64,000 nucleotides of DNA from Bryum argenteum (lineage: Eukaryota > Streptophyta > Bryopsida > Bryales > Bryaceae). Under the pieces are notes generated by a model. The model saw only the letters and a program-made list of their open reading frames with translations. It did no database searches and had not been told where the DNA came from. Both the position numbers and the translations under genes were made by a program. The stretch is from positions 2,129,501-2,193,500 of the forward strand of contig CM073331.1 in NCBI GenBank assembly GCA_037043015.1. Reading direction: 5' to 3'. Position 1 is the stretch's first letter. Each line of letters opens with the position of its first letter. Shown here piece by piece: positions 4,171-52,010 of the stretch.

Positions 4171-4260
4171 TTAAGTGTGTTCTCCAAACAGCCCTTCAAG
4201 CCATTTGGGCTCAAAGTAAACCAAACCATAGATTTGATGACCTCCACTCCCTATGTTGAA

Positions 4261-28173: not shown

Positions 28174-28422
28174 CCCCTAACTTTTCCTTAAAACCCGAAA
28201 TGGGTTTTGGAGGTTCCCGCAGGAGAACTTTGACCATTATAATCTCACAAATGAGGAAGAATGAACGGTTCAAATTTGGTATGTGAGAAGAATGTCGAGT
28301 GAACTTTAAGATCTTACGTTTGAATCTCTTGAATAATGCTTAGATTGAGATTTTTTGAGCTTAATTTAAAGGAAGGTCTAATTTTGTGACTTAGACCATT
28401 TTGCAACAAAGAAATTTAGGGG
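28174..28422 (+). mobile_element. TTAA-bounded MITE, family B copy 2
   Basis: 249 bp, flanked by TTAA at 28170-28173 and 28423-28426; ends CCCCTAACTTTTCC and AAATTTAGGGG. Flanks outside TTAA differ. Its reverse complement is the element at 4261-4520. Confidence 0.82.
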
Positions 28423-28426
28423 TTAA

Positions 28427-29980: not shown

Positions 29981-30356
29981 GATTGGGAACGTTATGTTCC
30001 CTTGATCAGCGCGTTCTATTGGAAGTGTTGATTTACAGTTACTGTTGCAGAAGTCCCGCGGTGGTAATCGCTTTTTATCATTGCCGTAAGAATTATTCTT
30101 ACCATAGATTAAATTGGCCAAAACTGTTATTTCTATTTTTGGAGTTCACCCTTGACAGCCATATTCCATATTTACTTTCAGTTACGAGTGCAGTAACTTT
30201 AGTATTTATTTATTACATTGGACATGAATGAGGGATGATTGGACCATGTTCCATGTTATAACATAAAATGCGTCAAATACATGCACCAAGAGAAGTCATA
30301 CTGTAGAGCAGTCTTGACCTATACATGACAAAGTGCCAATGACAAAATTGAAAATA
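29981..30356. other. Left flank of the giant element
   Basis: No gene. Joined to 52011 onward this would be the original target locus. Confidence 0.4.
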
Positions 30357-30367
30357 GTCCAGAAGAG
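30357..30367 (+). repeat. 11-bp target-site duplication, left
   Basis: GTCCAGAAGAG, identical to 52000-52010, directly outside the terminal repeat of the 21.6-kb element. MULE insertions typically duplicate 8-11 bp. Confidence 0.85.
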
Positions 30368-30378
30368 AACGTTACTTG

Positions 30379-30410
30379 GGCGTGAGCGTAGAGCGTAGAG
30401 CGTAGAGCGG
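30379..30410 (+). repeat. Left terminal inverted repeat core
   Basis: 32 bp, reverse complement of 51956-51987 without mismatch. Holds four tandem heptamers (GAGCGTA three times then GAGCGG). The outermost 11 bp (AACGTTACTTG) are only weakly matched at the other end. Confidence 0.9.
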
Positions 30411-30772
30411 AGAATTTCAGATTGGAGAGCGGTGGTGAGAACATTTTTTTGGTAAATTTTACTAAAAATATAAAAATTCTAAATTTATACAGAATATTCT
30501 AGAGAATATTCCAATATTCCTGACTTATTACCGTGGATTTGGAACCCAAACCCGTGGAAATGAGGGAAAAAGTTCTGAAATTTGGCAAACTTCAACAACA
30601 TTCAAAAGACATGGAGACACTTATGGTGTGACATTACTTAAACAATTTTGTGGACATAGATACTAATATATTTTTTTTAATGCTATATTGCAAGATTGAG
30701 TCACACGACGTGTTCACAACACGGTATAGGGTTAAGGGCGAATAGGGAATAAAGTGTGGAAAACTATGACAT

Positions 30773-33700
30773 CTAAACTATGGCGAGCTCAAGGATGCCT
30801 CTCTCCATGATCATCTTCACCTCGTTGAAACTTAGGGTAGGCGCATGGATGAAGAGGTCTACATCATCTGGTTCAAACTTGCATATCAACACAAAGACAT
30901 AGTATAGGTGCTTACAAGGTCTATACGGTTCTCTCTCCTCCCCTAATTTTGCAATTGTGCTTTTAAACACCGGACAAGTGCAATCGGTAATGCACCCACC
31001 GATAGTTGATAAATCGATTGCGAATCGACTCCATGGAAATAATGCATCCAATTCCTGGCGATGGGACCATAGTGACCTTTAGTATCTTTCGCCGCATCGC
31101 ACGCGCGGAATCAATATTCCGTGTGTCTTAGAAGTTACGTTGCGATCGTCGGAGGTTCCTTGACTTCCTTGATTTTGGGAAGACATCTGCATTCTCCGGC
31201 ACAGGAATATGTGACAGGTCCCGTGGCGCAGATGCATTGTTGAAAGTGCGGTTGAGTGGTAGTCTCTCCTTCTGAGGGAGTCGGAAACCAGCATTCTCTA
31301 ACGCCTCCATCTCCGAACGTGTCAGATTTGTCCCTATCTTCACGGGCCAGATTGTTGGGATTGGGGGTTGATCTTCAGTTCGAGAGAACGGCTCCACCCA
31401 CTTCCGACGAGTGCCCTTCACACACCTCTCAATATCGTCGGGGCAGAAATAAAACTTCTCCACCTTCTTGCGGTGACCATTTTTTGGAGGCATCCATATT
31501 CCGGTATAAGTTGGTGCAGGTGTGGACTTCCCGTTTTGCACTATACGAGACTCGCATTTCTTCTTGGTCACTGCATGCTGTGCCCAACAGGACTTAGCTG
31601 AGGGCTCCTTCAATCGAGCAATATGCCATAAGTTTTCGTTCACTTTTGTCTCTTGTACAGCTGTCACCCGATTAATAGAGGCACCAGCGGATGGGGAAGA
31701 TTCGATTGGGCGTGCTTCGTCTTCGTCGTCCTCGTGAATAGTTGTCAGACTCTCAGCACAACCCCTCGTAACCCTTCTCCCGATTCGGGGACGCGAGAAA
31801 TTCACAGTGTCAGGCCTATGGGTTTCCTCTTCCGCTCCGATTGGAACATCACGCTTACGTTTCTTCGAACCAAAAATCTCGGCACCCTCCAAGTGAGCAT
31901 CGCGAGTACAAAATATATCGACCTCGGGAACTCTATTACGGCCTTATTGAGAGCTGATGGATTGCCGGTTCTATGAGCCTTGCGTTGTGCACTGCGAAGT
32001 CGGAGTTCCTCCCTAGACGGACCATGTCCACCCGCTCCACCTTTGGTGTATTGATAGTAACCCACAACTTGAAGGAAAGCACGAACGTAATCATCAACAG
32101 CTGCCATATAGAGATCACCACCCTTATTTCCCGAAGCTTGCAACCATTTGTTATGAATGGATTCTGCAAGGTTGCAGGATGGCATCTCAGCTAGCTCTTC
32201 TGGAGATAATTTTTGTTCCTGATAGGTACATAAATAGTGATGTCAAGCTCAAAGTGTAGGAAGAGGCTATTTCGTTGACGAAATTGCCTCCTAAAAATAG
32301 ATATTTTTTTATTTTAATTTTTATTGGAAAGAAATAATAATTTACATTTATCCCGACTTAATTGTAAAATCGAAATTGCTATAACTTGAAAATTACCGTA
32401 GTAAGCATTTACTTACCAGCTCCATGAATCCACCCCACTGTCTATAGCGGTGATGCCAATACGAAAGCCATAGGCCAAGGTGGTAGAGGCCATTTTCGGA
32501 GGTGGCGTTTGAGGATGACCACCACGCCACGATTGCCAAATACGGGTCTCGGCTTCATCGGATGAACGAGCATCCTTGTATTGCTTACGAGAGGACGATG
32601 TTGATCTTGCAATTCGTGGGACGATGTACTTCTTGGTATGAGTTTCTAATGATTGCGTCCAATGAAAGTAACAAGTACGTTCTTGGTCTTCCATGGGAAT
32701 TGAAGGATCTCCAGAGCCGTAAACGATCCGCACTGCGTTCCAGTTGGCTTGAGCACTGTCAGCCATAAATCCTTGAAACTTAGGTTTGTGTACTCCGTGC
32801 CTAGCCATGACGTGGTTGAGATTCCTCCAGAAGACAAGTTGAGCTTGAGTATCTTCAGATTGAAAATCTGAACATGCAATGGTTAGAATGCGCTGGTAAT
32901 TAGGGTCGTACACATGGCACGCCATGGTAGTCCATGGCTTCACTCGTTTGACATGGTCAAACATCATCCATGCATTGGAGAGGTCGCCTCCAGGTTGCAT
33001 CCGGCGGACAAGGTCAACACCACTACCGGGTCCAACTTCTGACATCTTAAAAATGAAGACTTTATCAGAATCGTCCCCTTGGCCGGGGAACATGTTGCGT
33101 TGCACGTACGCCCAGTTGCTGAGTCCTCTTAGCTTCGTGATGCCATCAAGGATGCCAAATCTGCGCATGTACTTGAAAGAATAGATACGATTCCGCAAGC
33201 TTGGAGAGTTCAAGAGTTTACATCGATCAAAAACTGGCTCAAGTTCTTCAAGAGTTAGGTGTCCGGATTTGGGGTCATCTTCGTCGCGTAGAAGAATGTT
33301 ACCTACTACGTCCTTGCTCGTCTCCAAGACAATTTTCGAAATTGTTGCTTGGGGGTTGCGGTCAACATCTTTGTTCGATTAACTCATCTATCATTTGACG
33401 TGCGCATCTATAGTCTCCGACTTTTGTGGTGCTCGTGGGTACCGATATGCACACATGCACGCTCTTGAATATCATCTCCAAAGACGTAGAAGATTTTGGC
33501 AGGACACAAAGCAACGCAGACTGGAGGTTCTCTGCAAATCTTACAGACTAGGGTGGACGATGAGGGAGGCGGTTCACTTACTGAAAAAGGTTCTTTGGTG
33601 ATACCTTCAAACTCCACCTCATTGACTCCGTCCGCACGATCCGGCCGTTCAAGAAAGGACACTTGTCATTGTGGCATTGGAGATGACCCACGCAATTTGA

Positions 33701-34652
33701 ATATCGAAATGACAAGCCCAGGGTGTTCTTTGATGTTAGTTGTCATCGTCCTAGTCCGGACATGTCCGTCATACCGTTTGTCCATCCCTTCCATTGATCT
33801 TGCATTCTTGAGTACAGGCGGAAGGAAGTGCGGGGGAGGACATATAGGGCATCTCCATTAAAAGATGGAGGCGAGAAAGGATACAATGTGAGTAGGGATG
33901 GAATTGAAATCTAGTTTCTTGAGTATATTCTTGCTACCGGGCATGCTACCAAGTTTGCGTAGACATGGAAGAATGTTTTTGGGTTTTCTGTTTGAGAGGA
34001 TGGTGTGGGAGAGGCTAACGAAGAGGGCGTTGATTGAAAAGAGTTCGAGAAATAGAGGAGATGGATGGAAGCTTATTTGAAGGACGACGGGGTGGAACCG
34101 ATGGCTTTCGTTCGTCATCGGATGAATCTGATATATCGATACTAACACGCTTGCCTGGTTCGATCTTGACACGAGCAAAGAGGGGACCAACGTTAGAGAT
34201 CGTGGAGGAGCTACGAGGTGTTAGAAGTTGAGTGGATGCGTTCATAGCCGACTCTGTCAAACCGTATAGGCGATACTTTCCTGACTTGAGCTTCCACATG
34301 GTAGCGTTATTATCTAAGACATTTGGTTCTACAACCGTGGAGTACAGGACATGATAAGTTTGAGGATCAAGAACGTCGGTTTCTAACCACAATGTGGATA
34401 CATCATAGCCAAAGCGAATTGCAAGCCAAGAAGAGGTTACTTGGCCACACCATCGGGGCGGAGGAGGAAGACAGAGAGGGACATCGAGGCGGCGACTTAA
34501 TTTCGATCAAATCCGAGAGAAGGAGGCTCCGTGGTGGAAGCCATGACTTGGCCCCACGCCACGAGGCGAGGAGGAGGACAAGCGGGGACATCAGAGGCAA
34601 CTGACTTAATCTCGATCAAATCCGGGCAAGGTTTATGAGAGGAGGAAGCCAT
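30773..34652 (-). pseudogene. MULE-like transposase with SWIM zinc finger, frameshifted
   Basis: Reading leftward from ATG 34652 (MASSSHKPCPDLIEIK). In order: an N-terminal part with a 109-bp internal duplication; a Cys-rich block LVCKICREPP..CPAKIFYVF ending in IGTHEHH (33,662-33,408); the DDE-like core (33,376-32,417) with FDHVKRVKPWTTMACHVYD, FMADSAQANWNAVRIV and the C-x2-H motif TCYFHW; an intron 32416-32219; CNLAESIHNKWLQASGNK; a charged tail; and a SWIM-type finger (CTCP...CKHLYYV, 31,051-30,776). This resembles large MULE-like proteins known in seed-free plants. At least four single-base frameshifts are needed, near 33,423, 33,371, 32,494 (T-runs on the plus strand) and 31,930. Either decayed or affected by homopolymer errors. 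Confidence 0.75.
34440..34624 (-). repeat. 109-bp tandem duplication in transposase 5' end
   Basis: Two units with the shared block GATCAAATCCG at 34505-34515 and 34614-34624 and a shared TTGGCC...GAGGAGGA stretch. On the minus strand both encode a CPDLIEIKS...DVP..CPPP type peptide. The duplication introduces a stop between the copies. Confidence 0.6.
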
Positions 34653-35277
34653 GATTGAAGCTAGTACAAGAGAATGGACGAACGAGTGGTACAAAAGAGA
34701 TAATGAGTACCTGCGGCGATGTTTATGTACTAAAATAATGTACTCTTGTAAGTAGTAAATGTAAAAAGAGTTGCAAAATTATCTAGTGAAAGATATTCGA
34801 AGAGGTTGGATGTGAGGCTAATATTGGACGCACGAACTCCACAACGTATACGTATTTAAAACGTATCTTACAACCACTTTGTTTAAATATTGAACACGCG
34901 CATTAATTAAGCACAAGTATTAAGATGGTAAAACTAATTAAGGAATTGAGATTTGAATTCGAGACGGCGGCCGCCAGTGTCAGAGAATAAGTGCGCCAGA
35001 AAGGCTACTTGAAAATAGATTAGTATATAGTGTCAGACACGGAATCTGGGTAAAAGATTTTGTACTGCATCGGTGTGCGAAAGTGGCTATGAGTGTTAAT
35101 GGGTTACGCGTTTAGAGTAGTTAGGGTTTAGGAAGAACGGCGCATCCAAAGAGTATAAAGTCATCGGGTTACAAGAGATATTCCTCTTTGTTTCTGTTGT
35201 ATGATATAGTTGTATTCTCAGAGTCACGCTTTTGAGAATATCGTGTCTTAAGAGCGAGGAGTTTGTGATTGTTTGCA
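34653..35277. other. Divergent promoter region inside the giant element
   Basis: Lies between the start of the transposase gene (minus) and the small unknown gene (plus). Probably a shared bidirectional promoter; no single clear TATA box could be assigned. Confidence 0.35.
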
Positions 35278-36078
35278 ATGGAGGGTGATAGTAGTCAAGT
35301 CGAGAGAGGGAAGGATGGAGTACGCGGGAAGAAGAAGAGAAGAGGTGGCATAAAGTTTTCTGGATCGAAAGCATTGCGGCGGAGTGCCATGCGGAAGAAA
35401 GATGCGCGGATGTGTGTCGATGACGATCATATGCAAGACATAGATGAAACGATTGATGAGTTCCTTCCGGGAGGTTTAGAAGGAATGTAAAGATTCGAAC
35501 ATTGTACTTGGACGATGTTATGCGAGAATCTGTGGGTGAAGACGAAGAAGAACGGCTTGATTGGAACGAAGGAGTAAAGGAGGTAGATGCTAGTAAGAAA
35601 TCGCAGCGGAGTGGATCTCAAGAAATTGAACGTGATGGCGTGGATAAAGAGTTCGAAAAAGTAGTAAGTATAAATGGGAGTCAGGGTTTTGCACAATGTG
35701 TTAAAGTTGATGTGATGTACGATCTTAAATGTTTTAATGGGTTTGTTCGGTGGGATGATATGGACACATTCGTTGATGACATCTTTGGTGTTCATCCTCG
35801 GCAATTTGAAGCCGAAACACATGGAGCAAGCGGGGAATGTCAAGTGGAAGAACGGAATGCGGTGGATGGCCATGAAGAAAAAAGACGAAATGGAATTAGA
35901 CCCGGAACGTTTACCGGTACAATTCCCAAACCTTAGAGAGGAGGTAGATCTAGGATGTCGACCTGAGTTTATGATTTATGAACACCCTAATGGCTTCATT
36001 CAATGTTGGTTGATAGACAATAATGAGTTCCCCTGGGCCGACCGTGAGGACGTGGACGAAGCAGATGCTGATAGTTAA
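35278..36078 (+). pseudogene. Unknown cargo protein of the giant element, two frameshifts
   Basis: Starts at ATG 35278 (MEGDSSQVERGKDG), with a basic KKKRRGG stretch that could be a nuclear localisation signal. The frame closes at 35490 but continues one frame over (TLYLDDVMRESVGEDEEERLDW, 35502-35936), then in another (VKWKNGMRWMAMKKKDE ... NLREEVDLGCRPEFMIYEHPNGF ... ADADS, to the stop at 36078). The continuity of composition across the shifts indicates one gene of about 265 codons. I do not recognise the family. It is transcribed away from the transposase gene and sits between it and the tandem array. Confidence 0.5.
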
Positions 36079-37240
36079 CGTGCGACTAGGATATAGACCC
36101 ATTGAAGCCTTTTATTCTACATGTATTAGAACAGAAATTGGATATATTGTGGAAAAAGTCCAATTTATGTGAGACGGTCGCCCATGAATAAAGACCATAG
36201 CCCAACAATTCTTAGATGACATTTTTAGTAGAGAACATTCTAAACTCATATTCGGTGCTATATAAGAAGAAAAATAAAAATAGTGATATCTTATCTATAT
36301 TGTTATGTACGTTACCGAAACCACTCATGTCGCAGTAAATCATCATTTTATTATGTTATACGGCAAACTCCCCATCTAGCACTGTCGTCCATCTGCGTCT
36401 GCGGACGCCCGGGTAGCATAAGACGGCGGCATTGGCAGATAGTCGCATTGAAGCGACATTCACGTACCAAACTCTCTCATCATCAAAGTCATGAAGTCAT
36501 GTAGAATTAAAGGATATAAGTGCGAACAAAAAAGCTTCCATCGTGAGCTATCGAGTAAAGGTCATTTATCATTCATTATTTGGTATTATAAAGCTGCGTA
36601 TGTTTTGGACGAATAAAGTAGAAGTGAACTGATAGTAGCTTCTATGTAGAGTGTTGGCGCACAGAAGCCGTCTCTGGGATATCGGTTTGCACGTAGAAGC
36701 CAGAATTGTTTGACTTAGTAGCTAGAAGCTTATACCTTTAGCACACGGCATTCTAGCAATTCGGTGGAGGATCTGGACTGAACTGCCAGCAGAGGCCGGA
36801 TTTCATGCAGAGTCATCGGAGACGGGCACCAAAGTTACATCACCCTCCCGATCAGATCGTTGACCGCAGATAGTAGACCCCCCGCGTAGGATCGGATGTT
36901 TTGAGATCTTAAATGCCAGCGCAGCGCAGATGGCGGGTCTGCCGCATAACCAGCTGATGCCGCATAAGCGGGCTGACTCCACCGAGGTGCCTTATCTCGA
37001 AAGTGCCGATGGTGTAATATCGGGCTGGGCCTGTAGCAGAGATGAGCGTGACTTCCGTGATAAGGTTCCCAGATATCCTCGGCTGGTTGTGAGGCTCATG
37101 ATCGGAGGTCATGTTGAAAACCGAGAACTGCGAAGGAGATCTGGTTTGGTGCGGGTGGGAGAGATACATTGCTAGAACGAAGTACTATCACAGAGAGAGG
37201 AATTAAGCTTTCTTTCTTTCAGTTGCAGCGCGAATCGAAG
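36079..37240. other. Non-coding interval inside the giant element
   Basis: A frame at 36930-37175 has no recognisable domain. A pyrimidine tract with TTCAG at 37217-37222 just before 37241 could be a splice acceptor. Nothing else is supported. Confidence 0.35.
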
Positions 37241-37420
37241 ATGGCGAGCTGTGGAGGGGAGATAACGGCAATGCAGGACCCAAGCAAAGTCGTTGATGTA
37301 AGCGCCCCCTCCACGTTTTTGATCTCTGGGTGGCGAAGGATGTACTGGAAAACCACTGGGAAGTTCGAGGTCACCAAAGTTCAAACAATCGCGTCGAAGG
37401 GCATATGCTTTCCTGAGCAG
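37241..37420 (+). other. Exon-like open frame, possible captured exon
   Basis: ATG 37241 opens MASCGGEITAMQDPSK...FLISGWRRMYWKTTGKFEV...SKGICFPEQ and reaches a good donor (CAG/GTATGTG, 37418-37427). Unlike the surrounding sequence it has balanced codon use and no stops; the frame closes at 37480 if unspliced. No acceptor is obvious before the tandem array, so the downstream exon may be missing or lie beyond it. Family not recognised. Confidence 0.3.
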
Positions 37421-37519
37421 GTATGTGATGATTTTTCTTCTCAGAATGTCAGTGCATGGCCGAATTTGAAGCGTCAATGAATTTGAGCTCGACAATTGCG
37501 CCCAGTAGAAGCCGGCTGG

Positions 37520-39070
37520 TATCCTCGTTTGAATGCAGCCTCGCAGCCTCGTAGACTCATGACCTCGTAGACTCATGACCTCATGACCTCAAAGATCGGA
37601 GCCTCAGAGCCTCGTAGCCTCGCAGCCTCGTAGACTTTTTGCATGAGCATTGACATTGACGGATTTGCTCGCGAGATTGGTGTGGTTAGAACATGCTCGC
37701 GGAATCCTCGTTCTGTTTTGTGCTTAGAATGCGAATCTACTCGCTTGTAGCCATGTACAAGCTGGCTGGGAAGGTAGTTTGAAGGCATGACCGAATTCGC
37801 AGCATCTTTTTCAGCGTGAACCAGCTGCCTCGTGAATGAACCAGCTGCCTCGTGAATGTGCTCTGTTTGAGTTGTTTCGTCCGCGAAACTACCTTGCTTG
37901 AAGCCACGTAGTAGGTTCGTGGGGGGACGATGGAAAGCATGGCCGAACTCGCATGACCTCGTGCACTTCCAGCATGAGCATCGAGCTGGGCAGAATTCCC
38001 ATCCTCGTTGACAGGCTGTTGGAGATCGGTGGACCACTTCACCTCGGCACATTCGTCAACGAAACATCCTTGCTCAAGAATTTTAATACTTCAGATCGGT
38101 GTGCTTGAATTATGCTCCCCGAATCCTTGTTTTGTTCATGTGAGTAGAGTGTGCAAGATCTCGCTCAAGTCCCATCAACGCCTATTTGGAACCTCGTTTG
38201 AATGCGAAAGATGTGTTGTCATTTGAATGTGAAAGATATGCTCGGAGCCGTATAGAAGCCGGCTTAGATCCTCGTTTGAATATTAGCCCAGATTCGCAAC
38301 CTCTTTACTTTCAGCATGAGAATGGAGCGTGGGCTTGCTTTTTCGGGAACTCGCTTACCTCGAGCACTATCTACGGCGAAAGTACATGGCTCCGAGCCTA
38401 GTAGAACCTGCATGAGAGGGACGATTGAATGCTTTGCCGAATTCACGACCTCGTGGACTATCGAGAGAGCATTGTCCGGTAGTAGCGGACTCGTGAAGTC
38501 GCTCACGTCGAGACTTTCGTCAACGAAATTGCCTTGCCCCATTGTGATTTGGATGATTGAAAGATCGAGGCTTGGCGAGTTGTGTACTACGAATTTGCGG
38601 CGTCACACGACTCCGAGAGCTTGACCGTTGAGCCATGTGGAAGACGATCAATCCTCGATTGAATGCGTGCGAGAAGTTGCGGACTGGTTGCCTTGCTTGA
38701 AATCGAAACTACCTTGCCCGTAATATGCTCGTGGATCCTCGTTTGATTGCGAAGCCCGAATTCATAGTGACTAAGACCTCGAGCATGACCCTTGCGATCG
38801 TAGAAGCTCATTTGGAGCCTCGTTTAATTCATGCCGGCATTGAAGCATCGTTGCCCCGCCCGACATCGAAACTCCTTTGCTCGATTTAGGATATTCTCAT
38901 CATAGAATGTGAAAGATCTGCTCGCAGTATCCTCTCTTCGTAATTGTGATGAGAGTGTGCTAATCTAGTCGGAACCCTGTAGATGTTGGCTGGATCCTCT
39001 CGTTCGAATGCATGCCGAATTCGTAGACTTTGAGCGGGCTTTTTCTCGTGAGCTTCTTGCCTTGTGAACC
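37520..39070. repeat. Divergent flank of the tandem array
   Basis: Contains scattered, degraded pieces of the downstream monomer: CCTCGTAGACT and CCTCGCAGCCT blocks, TTCGTCxxCGAAACTACCTTG blocks and CGTTTGAATGC blocks. Internal short duplications are frequent (for example TGAACCAGCTGCCTCGTGAA twice near 37,818-37,856). Best read as older monomers pushed to the array edge. Confidence 0.65.
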
Positions 39071-42000
39071 GGCTCATGATGAGCACTCTCGTCAACGAAA
39101 CTCCCGGCTCGGAGCCTATTAGAAGTCGGGCGGGAGAGTTTTGTATTTCCATTGCGGTCGCATTCTCGTACTCTCGGCGAGCGTTTGTCGCATGTTGTAA
39201 CGGCCTCTTGAACCATCTCACCTCGAGCACCTTCGTCAACGAATGTACCTTGCTCGGAGCCCTTAATAAAGTGGCTGAGATGGACGGTATGAATGTACGT
39301 CGCAATTCGCAGCCTCGTAGACTTTTAGGGAGCGCTGTGTAGTAGCGGCCTCGTGAAGCAGGTCACCTGGAGCAGTTTCGTCAACGAAACTACCTTGCTC
39401 CGCAATTCTAATCCTTGTGATCGGTGTGCTTAGAATATGATCGTGGAAACCACGTTCTGTAATTGTGAGTAGGGTGTGCAAGATCTGCTTGGAGACTTGT
39501 AGATGTTGGCTGGACCCTCTCGTATGAATGCATGCCGAATTCGTAGACTCTGAGCGGGCGCTGTCTCTGAGCTTCCTGCCTTGTGAACCGGCTCATGATG
39601 AGCACTTTCGTCAACGAAACTCCCTGGCTCGGAGCCTATTAGAAGCTGGCTGGGAGAGTTTTGTTTTTCCTCCGCTGAATTCGCATTTTCGTACTCTCAG
39701 CGAGCGCTGTCTGCATGTTGTAACGACCTCTTGAACCATCTCACCTCGAGCACCTTCGTCAACGAATGTAACTTGCTCGGAGCCCTTAGTAAAGTGGCTG
39801 AGATGGACGGTATGAATGTACGTCGCAGTTCGCAGCCTCGTAGACTTTTGGGGAGCGCTGTGTAGTAGCGGCCTCGCGAAGCAGGTCACCTCGAGCAGTT
39901 TCGTCAACGAAACTACCTTGCTCCGCAATCCTAATCCTTGTGATCGGTGTGCTTAGAATATGTTCGAGGAAACCACGTTCGGTAATTGTGAGTAGGGTGT
40001 GCAAGATCTGCTTGGAGACTTGTAGATGTTTGCTGGATTCTCTCGTTTGAATGCATGCCAAATTCGTAGACTACGAGCGGTATTTGTCTCGTGAGCTTCT
40101 GCTTAGTGAACCGGCTCATGATGAGCACTTTCGTCAACGAAACTCCCGGCTCGGAGCCTATTAGAAGTCGGGCCGAGAGTGTTGTCTTCCCTTCCTTGGT
40201 CGCATAATCGTACTCTCGAGCTTTGTCGCATGTTGTAACGGCCTCTTGAACCATCTCACCTCGAGCACCTTCGTCAACGAATGTAACTTGCTCGGAGCCC
40301 TTACTAAAGTGGCTGAGATGGACGGTATGAATGTACGTCGCAGTTCGCAGCCTCGTAGACTTTTGGGGAGCGGCGTGTGTAGTAGCGGCCTCGCAAGCGA
40401 GTCACCTCGGCGATTTTCGTCAACGAAACTACCTTGCTCCGCAATCCTAATCCTTGTGATCGGTGTGCTTAGAATATGTTCGAGGAAACCACGTTCGGTA
40501 ATTGTGAGTAGGGTGTGCAAGATCTGCTTGGAGACTTGTAGATGTTGGCTGGATTCTCTCGTTTGAATGCATGCCAAATTCGTAGACTCTGAGCAGGCGC
40601 TGTCTCGTGAGCTTCCTGCTTAGTGAACCGGCTCATGATGAGCACTTTCGTCAACGAAACTCCCGGCTCGGAGCCTATTAGAAGTCGGGCCGGGAGAGTG
40701 TTGTCTTCCCTTCGCCGGTCGCATAATCGTACTCTCGCCGAGCGCCGTCTGCATGTTTAACGTGGCCTCTTGAACCATCTCACCTCGAGCACCTTCGTCA
40801 ACGAATGTACCTTGCTCGGAGCCCTTAGTAAAGTGGCCGAGATGGACGGTATGAATGTACGTCGCGATTCGCGCCCTCATAGACTTTTGGGAGCGTGTGT
40901 AGTAGCGGCCTCATGGCCAGTCACCTCGAGCAGTTTCGTCAACGAAACTACCTTGCTCCGCAATTCTAATCCTTGTGATCGGTGTGCTTAGAATATGTTC
41001 GAGGAAACCACGTTCGGTAATTGTGAGTAGGGTGTGCAAGATCTGCTTGGAGACTTGTAGATGTTGGCTGGATTCTCTCGTTTGAATGCATGCCAAATTC
41101 GTAGACTCTGAGCGGGCGCTGTCTCGTGAGCTTCCTGCTTAGTGAACCGGCTCATGATGAGCACTTTCGTCAACGAAACTCCCTGGCTCGGAGCCTATTA
41201 GAAGCTGGCTGGGAGAGTGTTGTATTTCCTTCGCCGAATTCGCATAATCGTACTCTCAGCGAGCGCTGTCTGCATGTTGTAACGGCCTCTTGAACCATCT
41301 CACCTCGAGCACCTTCGTCAACGAATGTACCTTGCTCGGTGCCCTCAAGAAGGTGGCTGGGATGGACGGTATGAATGTATGACGCAATTCGCAGCCTCGT
41401 AGACTTTTGGGGAGCGCTGTGTAGTAGCGGCCTCGCGAAGCAGGTCACCTCGAGCAGTTTCGTCAACGAAACTACCTTGCTCCACAATCCTAATCCTTGT
41501 GATCGGTGTGCTTAGAATATGTTCGTAGAATTCACGTTTTGTAATTGTGAGTAGGGTGTGCAAGATCTGCTTGGAGACTTGTAGATGTTTGCTGGATTCT
41601 CTCGTTTGAATGCATGCCAAATTCGTAGACTCTGAGCGGGCGCTGTCTCGTGAGCTTCCTGCTTAGTGAACCGGCTCATGATGAGCACTTTCGTCAACGA
41701 AACTCCCTGGCTCGGAGCCTATTAGAAGTCGGGCCGGGAGAGTGTTGTCTTCCTTCGCCGACGGTCGCATAATCGTACTCTCGCCGAGTTGTCTCGCATG
41801 TTGTAACGGCCTCTTGAACCATCTCACCTCGAGCACCTTCGTCAACGAATGTACCTTGCTCGGAGCCCTTAGTAAAGTGGCTGAGATGGACGGTATGAAT
41901 GTACGTCGCGATTCGCGGACCTCGTGAGACTTTTTTGGGAGCGCTGTGTAGTAGCGGCCTCGCGAAGCAGGTCACCTCGAGCAGTTTCGTCAACGAAACT

Positions 42001-45000
42001 ACCTTGCTCCGCAATTCTAATCCTTGTGATCGGTGTGCTTAGAATATGTTCGAGGAAACCACGTTCGGTAATTGTGAGTAGGGTGTGCAAGATCTGCTTG
42101 GAGACTTGTAGATGTTGGTGGATTCTCTCGTTTGAATGCATGCCAAATTCGTAGACTTCGAGCGGGCGGCTGTCTCGTGAGCTTCCTGCTTAGTGAACCG
42201 GCTCATGATGAGCACTTTCGTCAACGAAACTCCCTGGCTCGGAGCCTATTAGAAGCTGGCTGGGAGAGTGTTGTATTTCCTTCGCCGAATTCGCATAATC
42301 GTACTCTCAGCGAGCGCTGTCTGCATGTTGTAACGGCCTCTTGAACCATCTCACCTCGAGCACCTTCGTCAACGAATGTACCTTGCTCGGTGCCCTCAAG
42401 AAGGTGGCTGGGATGGACGGTATGAATGTATGACGCAATTCGCAGCCTCGTAGACTTTTGGGGAGCGCTGTGTAGTAGCGGCCTCGCGAAGCAGGTCACC
42501 TCGAGCAGTTTCGTCAACGAAACTACCTTGCTCCACAATCCTAATCCTTGTGATCGGTGTGCTTAGAATATGTTCGTAGAATTCACGTTTTGTAATTGTG
42601 AGTAGGGTGTGCAAGATCTGCTTGGAGACTTGTAGATGTTTGCTGGATTCTCTCGTTTGAATGCATGCCAAATTCGTAGACTCTGAGCGGGCGCTGTCTC
42701 GTGAGCTTCCTGCTTAGTGAACCGGCTCATGATGAGCACTTTCGTCAACGAAACTCCCTGGCTCGGAGCCTATTAGAAGCTGGCTGGGAGAGTGTTGTCT
42801 TCCCTTCGCCTTGGTCGCATAATCGTACTCTCGCCGAGCGCCGTCTCGCATGTTGTAACGGCCTCTTGAACCATCTCACCTCGAGCACCTTCGTCAACGA
42901 ATGTACCTTGCTCGGAGCCCTTAGTAAAGTGGTGAGATGGACGGTATGAATGTACGTCGCGATTCGCGGCCTCGTAGACTTTTTGGGAGCGCTGTGTAGT
43001 AGCGGCCTCGCGAAGCAGGTCACCTCGAGCAGTTTCGTCAACGAAACTACCTTGCTCCGCAATTCTAATCCTTGTGATCGGTGTGCTTAGAATATGTTCG
43101 AGGAAACCACGTTCGGTAATTGTGAGTAGGGTGTGTGCAAGATCCGCTTGGAGACTTGTAGATGTTGTGGATTCTCTCGTTTGAATGCATGCCAAATTCG
43201 TGAGACTACGAGCGGTATTTGTCTCGTGAGCTTCCCGCTTAGTGAACCGGCTCATGATGAGCACTTTCGTCAACGAAACTCCCCGGCTCGGAGCCTATTA
43301 GAAGGCGGGCCGGGAGAGTGTTGTATTTCCTTCGCCTTGGTCGCATAATCGTACTCTCGCCGAGCATGTCTCGCATGTTGTAACGGCCTCTTGAACCATC
43401 TCACCTCGAGCACCTTCGTCAACGAATGTACCTTGCTCGGTGCCCTCAAGAAGGTGGTTGGGATGGACGGTATGAATGTATGACGCATTCGCGACCTCGT
43501 AGACTTTTGGGGAGCGCTGTGTAGTAGCGGCCTCGCGAAGCAGGTCACCTCGAGCAGTTTCGTCAACGAAACTACCTTGCTCCACAATCCTAATCCTTGT
43601 GATCGGTGTGCTTAGAATATGTTCGTAGAATTCACGTTTTGTAATTGTGAGTAGGGTGTGCAAGATCTGCTTGGAGACTTGTAGATGTTTGCTGGATTCT
43701 CTCGTTTGAATGCATGCCAAATTCGTAGACTCTGAGCGGGCGCTGTCTCGTGAGCTTCCTGCTTAGTGAACCGGCTCATGATGAGCACTTTCGTCAACGA
43801 AACTCCCTGGCTCGGAGCCTATTAGAAGCTGGCTGGGAGAGTGTTGTCTTCCCTTCGCCGAATTCGCATAATCGTACTCTCAGCGAGCGCTGTCTGCATG
43901 TTGTAACGGCCTCTTGAACCATCTCACCTCGAGCACCTTCGTCAACGAATGTACCTTGCTCGGAGCCCTTAGTAAAGTGGCTGAGATGGACGGTATGAAT
44001 GTACGTCGCAGTTCGCAGCCTCGTAGACTTTTTGGGAGCGCTGTGTAGTAGCGGCCTCGCGAAGCAGGTCACCTCGAGCAGTTTCGTCAACGAAACTACC
44101 TTGCTCCGCAATTCTAATCCTTGTGATCGGTGTGCTTAGAATATGTTCGAGGAAACCACGTTCGGTAATTGTGAGTAGGGTGTGCAAGATCTGCTTGGAG
44201 ACTTGTAGATGTTGGCTGGATTCTCTCGTTTGAATGCATGCCAAATTCGTAGACTCGAGCGGTATTTGTCTCGTGAGCTTCTGCTTAGTGAACCGGCTCA
44301 TGATGAGCACTTTCGTCAACGAAACTCCCCGGCTCGGAGCCTATTAGAAGTCGGGTGGGAGAGTGTTGTATTTCCTTCGCCTTGGTCGCATAATCGTACT
44401 CTCTCAGCCGAGCGTCTCGCATGTTGTAACGGCCTCTTGAACCATCTCACCTCGAGCACCTTCGTCAACGAATGTACCTTGCTCGGTGCCCTCAAGAAGG
44501 TGGTGGGATGGACGGTATGAATGTATGACGCAATTCGCGACCTCGTAGACTTTTGGGGAGGCGTGTAGTAGCGGCCTCATGAAGCAGTCACCTCGAGCGT
44601 TTTCGTCAACGAAACTACCTTGCTCCACAATCCTAATCCTTGTGATCGGTGTGCTTAGAATATGTTCGTAGAATTCACGTTTTGTAATTGTGAGTAGGGT
44701 GTGCAAGATCTGCTTGGAGACTTGTAGATGTTTGCTGGATTCTCTCGTTTGAATGCATGCCAAATTCGTAGACTCTGAGCGGGCGCTGTCTCGTGAGCTT
44801 CCTGCTTAGTGAACCGGCTCATGATGAGCACTTTCGTCAACGAAACTCCCTGGCTCGGAGCCTATTAGAAGCTGGCTGGGAGAGTGTTGTCTTCCCTTCT
44901 TGGTCGCATAATCGTACTCTCGCCGAGCCGTCTCGCATGTTGTAACGGCCTCTTGAACCATCTCACCTCGAGCACCTTCGTCAACGAATGTACCTTGCTC

Positions 45001-45665
45001 GGAGCCCTTAGTAAAGTGGCTGAGATGGACGGTATGAATGTACGTCGCAGTTCGCAGCCTCGTAGACTTTTTGGGAGCGCTGTGTAGTAGCGGCCTCGCG
45101 AAGCAGGTCACCTCGAGCAGTTTCGTCAACGAAACTACCTTGCTCCGCAATTCTAATCCTTGTGATCGGTGTGCTTAGAATATGTTCGAGGAAACCACGT
45201 TCGGTAATTGTGAGTAGGGTGTGCAAGATCTGCTTGGAGACTTGTAGATGTTGGCTGGATTCTCTCGTTTGAATGCATGCCAAATTCGTAGACTCTGAGC
45301 GGGCGCTGTCTCGTGAGCTTCCTGCTTAGTGAACCGGCTCATGATGAGCACTTTCGTCAACGAAACTCCCTGGCTCGGAGCCTATTAGAAGCTGGCTGGG
45401 AGAGTGTTGTATTTCCTTCGCCGAATTCGCATAATCGTACTCTCAGCGAGCGCTGTCTGCATGTTGTAACGGCCTCTTGAACCATCTCACCTCGAGCACC
45501 TTCGTCAACGAATGTACCTTGCTCGGTGCCCTCAAGAAGGTGGCTGGGATGGACGGTATGAATGCATGTCGCAATTCGCAGCTTTGTAGACTTTTAGGGA
45601 GCGCTGTGTAGTAGCGGGCTCGTGAAGCAGGTCACTTGGAGCAGTTTCGTCAACGAAACTTCCTT
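39071..45665. repeat. Tandem array, 13 monomers of about 522 bp
   Basis: GGCTCATGATGAGCAC marks successive monomers at 39071, 39590, 40113, 40630, 41149, 41673, 42200, 42724, 43249, 43773, 44295, 44816 and 45336, spacing 517-527 bp. From about 40.8 kb two subtypes alternate (GTGGCTGAGATGGACGG with GTACGTCGC, and GTGGCTGGGATGGACGG with GTATGACGC), so the active unit is a dimer of about 1.05 kb; the dimer parts at 41149-41672 and 42200-42723 look identical. Each monomer carries three TTCGTCAACGAA blocks. Open frames on the minus strand drift between copies and end in stops, so I treat the array as non-coding. Confidence 0.93.
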
Positions 45666-46528
45666 GCCATCTGATTGAAATGAAAGTGATCTGCAGGCAT
45701 GGATTCTGCTCGTGGATCCTTGTTCGAATGTGTAGTCAGAATTCGCAGGGACATTGACCCTAACTACCTTATCCTCTCTCTGGTTAATATGTGGAAGATA
45801 AATATATATGCACGTATAGCGTTTGTATCCGAAAGTAGGAGAATATTAGGTGATTCATATCTACACCTCTTATCATTTCAATATTAACATTAATCTCTTT
45901 TCTCTCATCTCCTTGTGAATATACTAACGCTCGAATTTTTGTTGTGTTTGCTTTTGTAGGAGTCGATTGACATCGAGCCGGAGTTCTCTTCGTGGAATCG
46001 AGGAGCGATAGTGCTACGTCTTGCACGCGCGAACTAGAGTCTTAGATGTAGAGGTTAAACGCACGGTGGTTCGAGCACTTCCATTTGCTACTATAGATAC
46101 TAACACCGACTACGTTCAATCAACATTGATCGCTCTGTGTGCGATTGTTGTTGAAGATCAACGAGCTACTTACATGAAGTCTTTGGAGGGCGCGTCGTAG
46201 GCAAGCTCGCGCTTGGAAGCTCAAGCTCAAGCCGGACTTTGCCCACGACGTTCTAAGAGGATTGCGACCTAGTCTAGCTAAATTTGAGCAGTCTACTTTA
46301 ATTTTAGCTACTGACATCTTACATTACCATGAGACGTAAAGACCAAAGTTCATGTTGTCTTCATTTATAATTTATGTTGCTTCTCTATTTCTATTTGAGT
46401 TTTCATAATTGATTACTAAGTATCTTTGGTACTCTTGCGCATACCCCTCTCTCGATTGCCCCGCTGTCATCTGAGACCGATCCCACCAACATGGCAACAA
46501 CTGACGGTTGTGACGCGGAACAGCAGTC
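45666..46528. other. Upstream region of the ParB/methyltransferase-like gene
   Basis: Begins where the last array monomer decays. AT-rich in part, with no gene. It probably contains the promoter for the gene starting at 46529. Confidence 0.35.
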
Positions 46529-49500
46529 ATGTTTGCCACTGACTATCTCCCCAAGCCGCCAACTCACATCTCAATCTCCAATTGCGAAGACGATAGCGAT
46601 GACATTCAAGAGATTGTTCCGGGTACACAGTGTTTGCGCGACATTGATGCAGTTGACGAGATGAACACATTTACGGTAGCTGCGTCTCCAACTGCAAGAT
46701 CTGCGAGGGAATCTCCTTCTCTCCCAGATACTTTGGAGGTTGGGGTTGTTGAAATGCCAAGTCATTTGGCAGAGATGGATCCTATGTGGAGCGCTGACGA
46801 GTTACGCGCTCAACAAAAGGGAAACTCAATCAACACTATATCCAGATTTGCGTATCAAACCAGGTTGAAAAATCTCGACTTGAATTCCCCTCTGTCGCCT
46901 CTCGTGTTACCCCAAGGTACGTCCTATCATTGAAACAGATGTTTGCAAGTTGGCAAACGAGTTTGTCAAAGGATCTGAGAGAGAGGGCGTCGTGTTCTTT
47001 ATGTTTCCCCCTTCGCCAAAGAACAGTAAGCGGTTGGTAAGGGCGATGATGCCGTTTGGAATAACCCTCATTGAAAGCGGCCAATGATCGCTTCAAGTCT
47101 CATTGCAAGCCGATCCGGACCTTTGCCAATTTAGTGGCAAATACTTCTACGTCTACGAGGGGAATCATCGCGTTACTGCTTGGATGCGGTACATTGAGCA
47201 AATGCGCAGAGATGACCCTGATTGGTATTTCTTTGTCGACTGCATTGTCCTTGACGGACGTGACGAGAATACAAAAAAGTACTTATTGACGCGATGAATG
47301 ATATCAATGGTGAGTTCGATTTTGTATTATTTTTCCTTGGTCGTAGTATTTTTACACAATTTACATATATTTTGTACTAACCTCATCAACAGGTCCACAG
47401 AGCATGATCATGTTGAAGATAGCCTGCCATCGAGGTTGCAACGCATGCGCAAGTTTGGCAAGATGCCACTAGAAGAATGGAAACCCCTCATCTCTGCCGA
47501 GGACGGAAGAAATCTTATTACCGCAAAAGATAAGTCGAGGCGGACTTGGTACTTCGTTACTAAAGACGTCTTCATAAAGTTCCTCTATGCGGTGGGTCAT
47601 TTTGCATATCTTTTGTATGAATTCGTTTTAAATTGAGTTTTTACTTTATATCCAACATGAGTTCTTTGATTGTCCGGAGGCAATGTGCTAAAGTCGCCGA
47701 CGAAGCCCAAGCCCAATACTACGAGGACACTCCGTCGGCGAGAGAGGATCTGCGCAAGGAGTTTGGACGGCCATGGACGATGCTCTCAAAGGCGAGGGTT
47801 AACGAATCCGACGAGAAAGATTTCGACAAAATGCTTGCCATTGCTAATCCCGAGTTAGGAAAAGCTTTTGAGCAAGAGGTACGAATTCACTCGACCTATC
47901 TTACTTCTATCTCTCAATTTCGTTCTCCACATCCTCTGTTATATTTCTTAATCTCTTTCTTGTAATTTGATGTAGATCAATCTTCATTATAGTCGTCAAA
48001 AGGATCCCGAGATGTCTCTCGGAGCGCCTCAGGAAGGTCGCCACCACCAACGTTTGAAGGAAGTGAAAACCATGTGGCCGTTGGTGGAACAACACTCCGG
48101 CATTCCGACGGAGTGTTCGCTTCCGGACCCGGTCGAGATGAAAGACAGGTGTTGGGAGGCATGGCTTGCCCGTGTTGCCTTGTGGTCTCGGTACTACATA
48201 TGCACTCAATCACATTCGTTACACCGATATGACCATACCCATTTTTCCCGATTTTTACTAACTTCACTTGTTGTCCACGATTAGATTAGCGTATCTCGAA
48301 GGAGGAGGTGGACAAGTTCTTCAAACAAGAGAATCCCCACATCCCGAACATTGACGCCATTTTGATGCCCGAAGAGTACGTCGAAAAATGGCGTCTTCTT
48401 TTATGGGATAAGGCATTCGATGCTTATTTGGGGCCCAAAGCCAACCCTAAGTTCATTAAAGGCTCCCACATCGACAAGATTGGCGGAGGTCCTCAAACTA
48501 AGAAGCGATTGATGTTCAGGTTTGACCACGCCGTTCTGTATTGTCAATTTTCTGAATATTATATTCAGAAAAGTGTTTCTAATTGTTTTTACTCTTTGTA
48601 GGTATCTCAAACACGAGCTCGTTGCTAAGGGTGGTCTCGCTCCAGTGGGCATTCCGTCTGAATTCCAAATCCCTTGCTTGAAGAAGAAACCGAGGTCGAT
48701 TTTTTCGAATGATCAGAGGCAACGGTTCAAGATGGCTTTACTGTTGACTGGTGGTTGGTTTCTAGAGTCTCAAACCCACCATGTTCACAACGAAGAGAAG
48801 CATCTTGTACAGATAGCGGAATCGGTCGACGCTGCTCCTGTAGCACTACAAGTTGATGATGATGACGACGACTTCTACATGCTTCCAGGCGCTCCACCAC
48901 CACCCCCCCTCGCTGCACCAAAAGATAGAGGTACTGCAGGTGGCAGCCGGAAACGTCGCAGAAATGAGCCTACCCCTGAGCCAGAAGAGGAAGAACAAGA
49001 AGAGGAGGTGGAAGAGCACGAAGACAATGACGAAGACGTCGAGGGAGGGCATGGAGATGTTCCCATTCTCGATGAGCTTGCAGGTGTTGTAGATTGAAAT
49101 GTATGTATGTTACTCTAGTTGTACTTTGTTATTTATGTAACATGTGCGCTTTTGTATGCATTGCAGTTCAAAGGGAGGTTGAAATGACACAAGCTTCGCA
49201 GGGACGGTTGTCAACAACGCTCGGGTGTGGTGTAAGAGGTCTGTTGCCTCGGATAGGCGGCGATTTCGCACGAAAGGCATGGTCGAGGTGGATACAAGCC
49301 TACGAGAGGGGGGTTTCGAATGTGAGATCTACTCCTCCTTCGTCGTCGACCCCTCGTGAGTCTCCTCTGTCACATGGACCGACGCAATCTAATGGACCCA
49401 TGCGTCCCATAGTTTTTCCCAAAAATGTGGGTAGTAGTTCCTCTTCTCCTATAACGGTGACGCTCCCTATGTTCCTTGAGAAAGGAGACACAGCGGCCTT

Positions 49501-50944
49501 GGTTGAGCGATCTACAAAGGGTCTTGGTTTGGGTTGATGCTATTCGGCTATGGTTCAACACATCAAGAAGGTAAATCCTCTCTAACTATGAATCGTTTTT
49601 GTCTTGAAGTTACTCTATATCCATTTATTGGTTTTCGATTACTTTGTGTCTAATTCACAGATTGGAAAGGGTAGGGACTACCCTTGCGAAAAAGATGGAG
49701 CACAGCCCAAACATCCCGGGATTGACCTTATCTTTGCAGATGTTCCCGAGAACTTGCCCGTGCTTAATGTCTCGCCGGATGCAGTTCCTCTCTGGAACAA
49801 GCGTGCTACGTATTACTTCGAGTCCGTGTTTGTCTTTGCCTCATACCATTTGACGGACTTTGGGACTATCCTAATTATGCACCCCAAGGACGTCAAAATT
49901 GACCGCATCCTACACGATCGTGCTAGTACTTACAATTTCCGGCTTGTGCGTGAGTGGTGGGCCTATAACCCCCTTCCTTTGGTTAGACCTGGCACTAACG
50001 CAAGAGAGGTATTCTTCGAATTTCGCACTTGATTTTATCTCTCAATTCAACATTACGTTTTCTGAATATCGAATTGCTTATTGCAGACCCATAACTTTAC
50101 CATCAAGGTCTATGCTCGGAAGGACTTCGTGAAGATGTTCAACATACGACAGGGGGCGCAAGCATACGCAGGAGTCGCGATCATACCCGACGAGGATGAC
50201 ATGGTCAGTAACTTTGCTGACGCGAGTTCCATTACCTACCGCACTAACGGGAAGCCGTGGCGCGGCGCACGGAAGAAGGATCCGTCGTTTTTGCAGTGCT
50301 TCGTGGATTGCCTTACGGACGATGGGGGAATCGTGTTTGACTTCAGCGCTAGTACAGGTAAAAATTTGATTACCCATTTATAAGCTGTTGCATACTCATA
50401 TTTTCAATACTCATGTGGATTTTCAAATGTGCAGGTGCTTCAATCATCGCATGTGCACGCTCCAATCGTCACCTCATTGCTTTTGAGGCAGATGAGGAGA
50501 TCTTCGATGGGCTTTTGGCGACCTTCAAACACCCTAAACCGTTGGAAGAAGAGAGTGGGGAATCGGCCTGCGTGACGATTACGACTCCGATGAACCGTAT
50601 CTCGAAGAAACCTCGCACTTATATTGGTGTGTACTCAATTCAATTCATTGACTTTTTGTGATTTCAAAGTCGTACTACAATCGAACATTATTTGGTTATG
50701 ATTATTTAGCTATGGGCATCTCAAGACACTTGACCCAAAACGCTCATCTCATCAATAGCCCACCTCCCACACACGTGTTCTACCCTCTTATGCGGAGCAT
50801 GTAGCTCGAGCTTTCGTCGCGGCTCCAACTCCTCTGCATCGAATGCTTCACGAAGACGCTTTAGAATTTGGTGTGCTTAGATACATTGATTTAGAGGCAG
50901 ATCAGTGTGACCACCATTTTAATGGTGCTTCACCTTCATCGTAG
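46529..50944 (+). pseudogene. ParB-like plus N6/N4-type DNA methyltransferase-like protein
   Basis: Multi-exon gene. Supported exons include 46529-about 46915, about 46914-47296, 47401-47591, about 47650-47878, 47976-48190, about 48290-48519, 48602-49083, 49167-49570, 49661-50008, 50087-50357, 50435-50626 and 50710-50944. The N-terminal part is acidic. At 47.12-47.29 kb it reads FYVYEGNHRVTAW...VLDGRDENTKK, the GxHRxxA signature and following helix of ParB/sulfiredoxin-like domains. After a basic/acidic linker with a proline run, DLIFADVPENL (about 49.73 kb) resembles methyltransferase motif IV and FDFSASTG-ASIIACARSNRHLIAFEADEEIFDGL (50.33-50.5 kb) resembles motif I, in the permuted order of N6/N4 enzymes. 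The DPPY and FxGxG residues are altered, so activity is doubtful. Frameshifts (46,915; 47,275; about 50,780) and an in-frame TGA (49535) are present. Confidence 0.6.
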
Positions 50945-50975
50945 TGTGTTTATTTTTTGTTTTCTATTTCAGAGA

Positions 50976-51022
50976 TGACTATGTAGGGCCAACTCTCATG
51001 AGTTGCCTTACCCTACAAGTCA
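50976..51022 (+). terminator. Hairpin after the methyltransferase-like gene
   Basis: Imperfect inverted repeat TGACT..GTAGGG...AACTC / GAGTT...CCCTAC.AGTCA with a 4-base loop, about 30 bp after the last stop codon. It may be a 3'-end structure or the remnant of a small foldback element. Confidence 0.4.
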
Positions 51023-51239
51023 TTACTTTCATATGTTTTACATTATTTTACATATATGTGTCTTTGCCTTAAACCGTATTGAAAATTTTCAAAGTCCAAT
51101 TCTGTACTCAATCTATATGTTGGATTCACTTGTTATACCCCACTATTTTAAATGACATTTAAAATTCTAAAATGTATACCGATTCTTATAGGTCAATGCT
51201 TCCCTAAATTTGTCAATGTCTACAGGAGCTTATATTTTG

Positions 51240-51362
51240 TCCCTATTAGCTCAGGATAGCTGCCTTTTACGCTACGCGATGCTCAAACGAGCCCGATGGG
51301 GATCGAACCCGGACCTTCGCTATGCCATCGTTATGTCTAATCCATCCACTACATTAGAGTAA
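51240..51362 (-). mobile_element. tRNA-related SINE-like sequence inside the giant element
   Basis: On the minus strand a box A-like TAATGTAGTGG (51356-51346) is followed 37 bp later by a perfect box B GGTTCGATCCC (51308-51298). It does not fold as a complete tRNA, so it is probably a SINE head or a tRNA-derived polymerase III promoter. Confidence 0.4.
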
Positions 51363-51905
51363 ACGATGAAACAGTTTCTATTACTGATATTTGGATTATA
51401 TATTCCATTGCCATTTATATTTTTTCCTTTATCAGGACAGTTACCAACATGCGCAATATTCCTTGCCGGGATCGTGGGAGCAGCGCGTTACACAAGAGGC
51501 AACTATCCGAGGATGAAGTATAGATCTAGAGGGATTTCTTTGCTTTCGCCATGATGACGTCAGCCCTACTTTATTCCTAGACCGTAAATCCAAAAACAAG
51601 TTTAATAATAACCTAAATCATATGTTCAATATAACCTTTAAATCGTCATGCCTCCATTTCACACGTTCATCAATATGATGACATCAGCCCTACTTTCAAT
51701 ATATTCACATAAAATCTTCAAGATAATACAAATGAAATATTCTTGCAAGGTGGGACCCACATTTAAAGTAGACCCAACACCACAGAATTAGGGACCATAA
51801 CCCCTAAAAATAAACATTTTAAAATAGTACAGTAAAAAATTAAGTGGTAATAGGGTACTTTACTTTGAAAAAAAATTGTTAAAAAATAGTCAAAATTGTC
51901 CCGTC

Positions 51906-51987
51906 ACCGCTCTACGCTCACCGCTCACCGCTCTACGCTCACCGCTCTACGCTCACCGCTCTACGCTCTACGCTCTACGCTCACGCC
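51906..51987 (-). repeat. Right terminal inverted repeat with 11 heptamers
   Basis: Read on the minus strand this is GGCGT followed by eleven tandem heptamers of two types, GAGCGTA and GAGCGGT. The outer 32 bp (51956-51987) equal the left end exactly. The left end has only four heptamers, so the array has expanded or shrunk at one end. Confidence 0.92.
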
Positions 51988-51999
51988 TCTACATTCCCC

Positions 52000-52010
52000 G
52001 TCCAGAAGAG
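52000..52010 (+). repeat. 11-bp target-site duplication, right
   Basis: GTCCAGAAGAG, the partner of 30357-30367. Confidence 0.85.

Follow-up and report, generated by a model that had tools for sequence, protein, structure and literature searches.

Mutator-like elements (MULEs) are defined by target-site duplications of 8-11 bp, at least in the passages on them in PMC6446971, and the Pack-MULEs of Jiang et al. 2004 did not exceed 7 kb in any case, as cited in PMC6431247. The Sola transposon Sola1-1_Ec32 of the brown alga Ectocarpus is 21.5 kb long according to the passages on it in PMC12477816, which give its accessory protein a length of 1104 amino acids. Proteins that act on short sites or relieve silencing are described in sections of two further sources: VANC21 of Arabidopsis binds YAGTATTAY in tandem repeats of VANDAL21, with motifs that differ between families (PMC5735166), and VirB is a ParB-family anti-silencer (PMC10653881). 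Here we analyze a 64,000-nucleotide stretch of the genome of the moss Bryum argenteum (hereafter the window; C11:2129501-2193500 of the 258.8 Mb searched), in which the segment 30367-51999 is one inserted member of a family of large DNA transposons that recurs in the genome. We lean, at somewhat better than even, toward reading it as a giant, probably MULE-type transposon whose ParB-like and methyltransferase-like protein would bind internal palindromes and thereby mark the element or prevent its silencing.

The boundaries of the element are the following:

30367-51999: inserted element, starting with G at 30367, with a 10-bp target duplication on either side
30357-30366, no strand: left target-site duplication of 10 bp, GTCCAGAAGA, present in single copy at three empty sites
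52000-52009, no strand: right target-site duplication of 10 bp
30367-30413, forward strand: left terminus, with the 12-bp outer end GAACGTTACTTG and then the inverted-repeat arm GGCGTGAGCG(TAGAGCG)n
51953-51999, reverse strand: right terminus, with the matching inverted-repeat arm and a 12-bp outer end that reads GGGGAATGTAGA inward
51904-51987, forward strand: subterminal repeats of a 7-bp unit (CGCTCTA / CGCTCAC)

The initial annotation had reported an exact 11-bp duplication bracketing a perfect 32-bp inverted repeat pair, with unequal distances of 11 and 12 bp between them. The letters agree: GTCCAGAAGAG stands at both 30357-30367 and 52000-52010 (11 bp), and the 32 perfect base pairs are the outer part of a 35-nt pair (30379-30413 / 51953-51987, 97% complementary). 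The eleventh matching base, 52010 against 30367, is a chance match and the duplication is 10 bp, so that the ends become symmetrical, with 12 bp from terminus to repeat at each, and the asymmetry is gone. In most other fetched copies, the left outer 12 bp read GGACGTTACTTG.

Searching the genome with the two ends gave at least 45 matches for the left (best 40 of 121 candidates scored) and at least 40 for the right (best 40 of 244), so both copy numbers are lower bounds. Eighteen further end pairs, spaced 11.7-45.7 kb, were chosen by coordinates alone (correct order, at most 46 kb apart, window excluded), and their ends were then fetched. An exact 10-bp duplication of its own flanks 12 of the 18, and 2 more agree at 9 of 10 bases; in another 2, both on C9, the flanks are exactly exchanged between the pairs, while one pair has a shifted 10-bp match with a different right terminus and one has no duplication. 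Among 306 unpaired flank combinations serving as control, 2 match at 9 or more of 10 bases, and both are the exchanged C9 ones; in a looser search, 15 of the 18 pairs show a direct repeat 9-14 bp long. The C9 pairs (C9:6412900-6430020 and C9:6462800-6494930; L019, L020, L029, L030) are opposite copies with swapped 10-bp flanks, AGACGAGGGA and ACGAATCACT, as an inversion by recombination between the two would leave.

Joined with one duplication retained, the flanks of the window element match three other places without a gap: C4:20587172-20587513 (324/342 identical), C9:14777495-14777838 (319/344) and C7:15195953-15196240 (266/288). The window element therefore sits inside a repeat that is present elsewhere intact. 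Both checks proposed in the initial annotation, for paired ends with different duplications elsewhere and for an empty site joining the flanks, thus gave a positive answer, and its judgement that chance is an unlikely origin is borne out by the twelve pairs with duplications of their own and by the three empty sites. The insertion target (window 30224-30367 plus 52011-52210) belongs to a repeat of which the genome contains three or more further close copies. Nested insertions also occur: the copy at C4:5447680-5464620 lies in the transposase gene of another copy, its joined flanks matching the window transposase at 91.6% over all 199 bases with two gap openings, and the copy at C2:8489330-8509940 likewise lies in the transposase gene of a family member, its flank being judged by eye.

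Inside these ends, the genes and the array are arranged as follows:

30773-34652, reverse strand: transposase gene with two exons, boundaries read by eye
about 32417-34652, reverse strand: transposase exon 1, with WRKY/GCM-like head and DDE-like core
about 32219-32416, reverse strand: transposase intron
about 30773-32218, reverse strand: transposase exon 2, with a C-terminal, SWIM-like CxC...CxH
35278-36078, forward strand: third gene, encoding a small basic/acidic protein, MEGDSSQ...KKKRRGGIKFSGSKALRRSA..., frameshifted in the window
38978-45667, forward strand: tandem array, 12.8 copies of a 524-bp unit with three palindromes each
46491-50944, forward strand: ParB-like and N6/N4-methyltransferase-like (accessory) gene, divided into 11 exons on the model of the C2:34.5 Mb copy
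46884-47309, forward strand: ParB-like region at the end of exon 1, IPLCRL..P.VRPI ... YVYEGNHRVTAW
49672-50517, forward strand: methyltransferase-like region, with ADVPEN at the position of motif IV and VFDFSASTG at that of motif I

The accessory gene is on the strand opposite to the transposase gene, and the array lies between these divergent genes. This layout recurs across the genome. When the best 150 of 918 methyltransferase-exon candidates and the best 150 of 1010 transposase candidates were scored, 52 methyltransferase-exon matches had a transposase match within 30 kb, 44 of them divergent and 8 in another arrangement, whereas shuffled transposase positions gave a mean of 2.0 divergent pairs and a maximum of 6. 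Many of the scored matches belong to a second subfamily, about 64% identical in the methyltransferase exon and about 83% in the transposase core. The third gene has the motif KKKRRGG..FS..KALRRSA, and related frames are found in both subfamilies. The initial annotation had correctly placed an array and a methyltransferase-like gene within the element, although its term cargo does not suit them: rather than captured host fragments without an own transposase, as in Pack-MULEs, the element holds its own transposase together with accessory genes and an array common to many copies.

Ten other full copies are 11.7-17.9 kb long. The window copy reaches 21.6 kb partly because of its expanded array: it has 12.8 units, compared with 2.3-3.9 per array in those five relatives for which the repeat finder gave a report. 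Six of the ten share the entire left part (to 38.9 kb) at 95-97% identity, three are 93-94% identical in the transposase part and divergent further in, and one shares only the left end (81%); in the right part, pieces are shared among copies at 68-97%. No match to the 524-bp array is present in three of the ten. A genome search with the 524-bp unit gave 102 matches (all 22 of 22 candidates scored) in 17 clusters including that of the window, and 16 of the 17 lie within 15 kb of an element match. The cluster at C3:6446594-6449379 is 26 kb from the nearest element match and could be part of a copy that is larger or rearranged. Elsewhere in the window, a 487-bp sequence at 63125-63605 is 97% identical to a piece within the array that the C4:23.7 Mb copy carries.

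The element is probably of MULE type, given its 10-bp duplication and inverted ends and a transposase model that combines a WRKY/GCM-like head with a weak IS256/MULE-like core. WRKY/GCM-type N-terminal zinc domains, such as the one found here, are common in the MULE superfamily. The terminal inverted repeats (TIRs) consist of 12-bp imperfect outer ends and the 32-bp perfect arms. The SWIM-like CxC...CxH was seen by eye; the corresponding model PF04434 matched weakly (E 0.79) and was not found in an intact exon. The ratio of nonsynonymous to synonymous substitution rates (dN/dS) of the transposase is 0.17-0.51 in 10 comparisons with exon references from two copies, which share references and are not independent, 2 of the 10 being partly the reference against itself.

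The accessory gene was modelled on the copy at C2:34.5 Mb, in which 10 introns, each GT-AG and 78-95 bp long, separate 11 exons; exon 6 of that copy contains a frame break. For exon 1, 84 relatives were found, among them a protein of Ceratodon purpureus, and 19 were aligned. This exon matches the ParB-like phage family phrog_1033 weakly (E 0.0042), as do 5 of the 19 relatives, and no ParB model in Pfam matched it. The C-terminal half, with four public relatives, resembles the N4C/N6A methyltransferase domain PF01555 (E 5.9e-4, 20.3 bits, below the curated cut-off of 26.7) and phage DNA methyltransferase families (E 2.3e-5 and 3.2e-5). The catalytic motif IV of N6/N4 DNA methyltransferases is [DNS]PP[YFW]; it reads DVPE in the window family and DAPS, DAPE and DVPE in the three relatives whose sequence extends over it, so that methyltransferase activity is doubtful. 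The structure model is poor (predicted local distance difference test, pLDDT, 40.7) and its structural matches are not decisive. The gene is, judging from a dN/dS of 0.16-0.47 in 19 likewise non-independent comparisons with the C2 copy, under purifying selection. Among nine top-scoring loci, selected by score, six (L083, L084, L085, L088, L089, L091) are free of frameshifts and stops across the covered 229-557 codons. A sequence of about 0.6 kb at window 55416-56024 is interspersed: it recurs, 86-87% identical, in the C2:34.5 Mb copy and in the C8:8.97 Mb copy, sitting within the methyltransferase-like gene in the latter.

In the window copy, the frame of the accessory gene is broken by 41 frameshift-type indels and 1 stop relative to reference copies, and its transposase has 30 frameshift-type indels and no stop; this copy is probably non-autonomous. 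Between 45851 and 51999, it differs from six copies of its own subfamily by about one gap opening, mostly of 1 bp, per two mismatches. The indels may be decay or residual assembly error.

Which sites could the accessory protein recognize? The candidates are 14-bp palindromes with 6-bp arms and a 2-bp spacer, TTTCGTCAACGAAA, located as follows:

38051-45658, forward strand: 40 palindrome cores, TTCGTCAACGAA, of the 14-bp site
32270-32283, reverse strand: one palindrome, TTTCGTTGACGAAA, in the transposase intron

Counting the core and its complement together, the window element has 41 copies and the remaining 42 kb or so have none (shuffled mean 0.18). Nine of the ten other full copies have 4-14 cores each, and the tenth has 1 core and 13 sites with at most two mismatches to the 14-mer; the intron palindrome is at the same place in 9 of the 10. 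The terminal repeats yielded no palindrome. In the whole genome, exact matches to the 14-mer number 307, compared with 2 for the same word reversed; the corresponding counts are 113 and 10 for CTCGTCAACGAAA, and 1093 and 401 for TTCGNCANCGAA. Of the first 100 listed places of the 14-mer, 69 lie within 15 kb of an element match and 31 do not, whereas random positions gave a mean of 6.1 and a maximum of 13. Furthermore, the core is retained while the surrounding sequence differs between some copies, including otherwise unrelated arrays.

In the second subfamily, four intergenic regions (L092, L093, L094, L095) were compared. L092 contains CTTCGGTGCCGAAG eight times; L093 and L094, which look like near-identical elements, contain TTCGGCACCGAA six and five times, TTTCGGCAACGAAA four and five times, and TTCGGTACCGAA three and four times, respectively. 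These three regions have TTCG-4 bp-CGAA in common with TTTCGTCAACGAAA of the first subfamily. L095 is without this pattern but has TTGCGTCGACGCAA four times, sharing with TTTCGTCAACGAAA only the length and the 6-2-6 layout, so the TTCG-4 bp-CGAA frame is kept in two of three independent second-subfamily arrays. Resampled second-subfamily sequences contained no inverted-repeat word three or more times. In the whole genome CTTCGGTGCCGAAG has 13 places, and the palindrome sites thus differ between lineages.

How these parts might work together can be outlined by analogy. The predicted transposase, with its WRKY/GCM-like head, IS256/MULE-like core and SWIM-like motif, would cut and paste the element. 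The accessory protein may recognize TTTCGTCAACGAAA between the divergent genes, loading there as ParB proteins load at parS; the parS sites of bacterial ParB-parS systems are short palindromes. Once bound, it could oppose host silencing or deposit a base mark, much as in VANC/VANDAL. The MULE assignment of the initial annotation, upheld by the termini and the transposase model, finds no counterpart in Pfam, whose MULE models matched none of 35 transposase relatives. Across 12 window units none of the 36 palindrome positions varies, compared with 366 constant ones among the 488 others, but 29% of all 12-bp windows are equally invariant, which makes invariance alone a weak argument. Shuffled controls also break tandem repeats, so that array amplification inflates the palindrome counts; the recurrence of the palindrome in unrelated contexts is a stronger point than these counts.

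Would the bound protein also modify DNA? An active methyltransferase setting N6-methyladenine (6mA) or N4-methylcytosine (4mC) at or near the palindromes, as a bacterial-type mark, is an unlikely alternative in our estimate, although the sequence has a recognizable motif I and the order of motifs found in the beta class of N6/N4 methyltransferases, and the gene appears to be under purifying selection. Such activity is also predicted by the Ectocarpus authors for a related architecture, in the relevant passages of PMC12477816. With the DPP[YFW] signature lost to DVPE, DAPS or DAPE, binding without methylation seems somewhat more likely than methylation, because motif IV is D[VA]P[ES] and not DPPY. 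The palindromes could instead be enhancer or regulatory sites bound by the transposase or the third small protein, with the ParB/methyltransferase-like protein acting elsewhere. The space between divergent genes is a natural place for regulation, the window element shares its intron palindrome with 9 of 10 other copies, and all of these proteins recur with the arrays; yet the palindrome differs between subfamilies whose transposase cores are about 83% identical, the methyltransferase-like protein at about 64% is the faster-changing candidate, and the terminal repeats lack the palindrome, all of which leaves us rather sceptical of this account. That array and accessory gene are passengers, an amplified satellite and a gene captured once, neither contributing to transposition, would suit the wide range of array copy number (2.3 to 12.8 units) and the three full copies without an array match. 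We nevertheless regard it as improbable, since selection is indicated by the dN/dS values, by the identical layout in two diverged subfamilies and by the same short palindrome in unrelated array contexts.

Binding of the palindromes by the accessory protein thus remains the preferred reading, and a wider version of it can be put forward tentatively, as possible though short of even. A land-plant MULE would have taken up two bacterial-type partition components for self-recognition: a fusion of a ParB-like protein with a DNA methyltransferase, possibly inactive, and a parS-like palindrome array. Each subfamily's protein would load on its own array between the divergent genes and hold the element open against silencing, protein and site co-diverging, in convergence with VANC/VANDAL.

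Outside the element, the window contains a 199-nt inverted repeat pair (4259-4457 / 28226-28424, 91% complementary, 23.8 kb apart) and a 97-bp tandem duplication at 26808-27001 (98% identical). The genome has a LEAFY gene whose DNA-binding domain reads KPKMRDYVHCYALH, which we take to be the moss type, reportedly that of Sayou 2014.

A MULE with this gene set was not found for a land plant or moss in the open-licence full-text literature searched. To speak of a new kind of giant DNA transposon, as the initial annotation did, nonetheless goes too far: descriptions from Ectocarpus already include giant DNA transposons, among them one that carries a ParB-methyltransferase gene, and the moss element is a variant of known giant ParB-methyltransferase transposons and not a new category, because Sola1-1 has a similar protein. 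What it adds is a concrete candidate protein-site pair for the algal proteins of this type, which were proposed to bind and modify their own element; the candidate site is the 14-bp palindrome with 307 exact genomic copies, most of the checked ones in or near element copies. If the binding is real, a land-plant transposon would have recruited prokaryotic components of partition and modification for self-recognition, parallel to VANC. Plant MULE-type elements can, moreover, reach 12-22 kb with a recurring three-gene set.

As far as the passages of the cited sources extend, the comparison is as follows. Like Sola1-1_Ec32, the moss element is a giant DNA transposon with an accessory ParB-like and N4C/N6A methyltransferase-like gene opposite to the transposase strand, but the alga has a Sola-1 transposase in place of a MULE-type one (PMC12477816); the passages on Sola1-1_Ec32 mention no palindrome array, and the moss element has a degenerate motif IV and a third gene. 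Pack-MULEs and MuDR share the Mutator-type duplication length and inverted ends (PMC6431247, PMC6446971), whereas Pack-MULEs carry host gene fragments and the full moss copies, at 11.7-21.6 kb, carry their own genes (PMC6431247). VirB resembles the accessory protein as a ParB-family-like protein with anti-silencing activity, which for the moss element would be by analogy (PMC10653881); the moss protein has weak homology to ParB, and neither ParB-parS nor VirB includes an array of this kind or a fused methyltransferase-like half. VANDAL MULEs likewise have accessory genes and a short motif in tandem repeats of their own noncoding DNA, gained or lost between copies and family-specific, but YAGTATTAY is not a palindrome of this type, and a VANC protein stands in place of one with ParB and methyltransferase resemblance (PMC5735166). 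VANDALs are also described as non-TIR elements or as having short degenerate TIRs (PMC13317346, PMC6446971). Anti-silencing is the role of VANC in VANDAL MULEs, and the accessory protein of the moss element may, by analogy, serve the same end.

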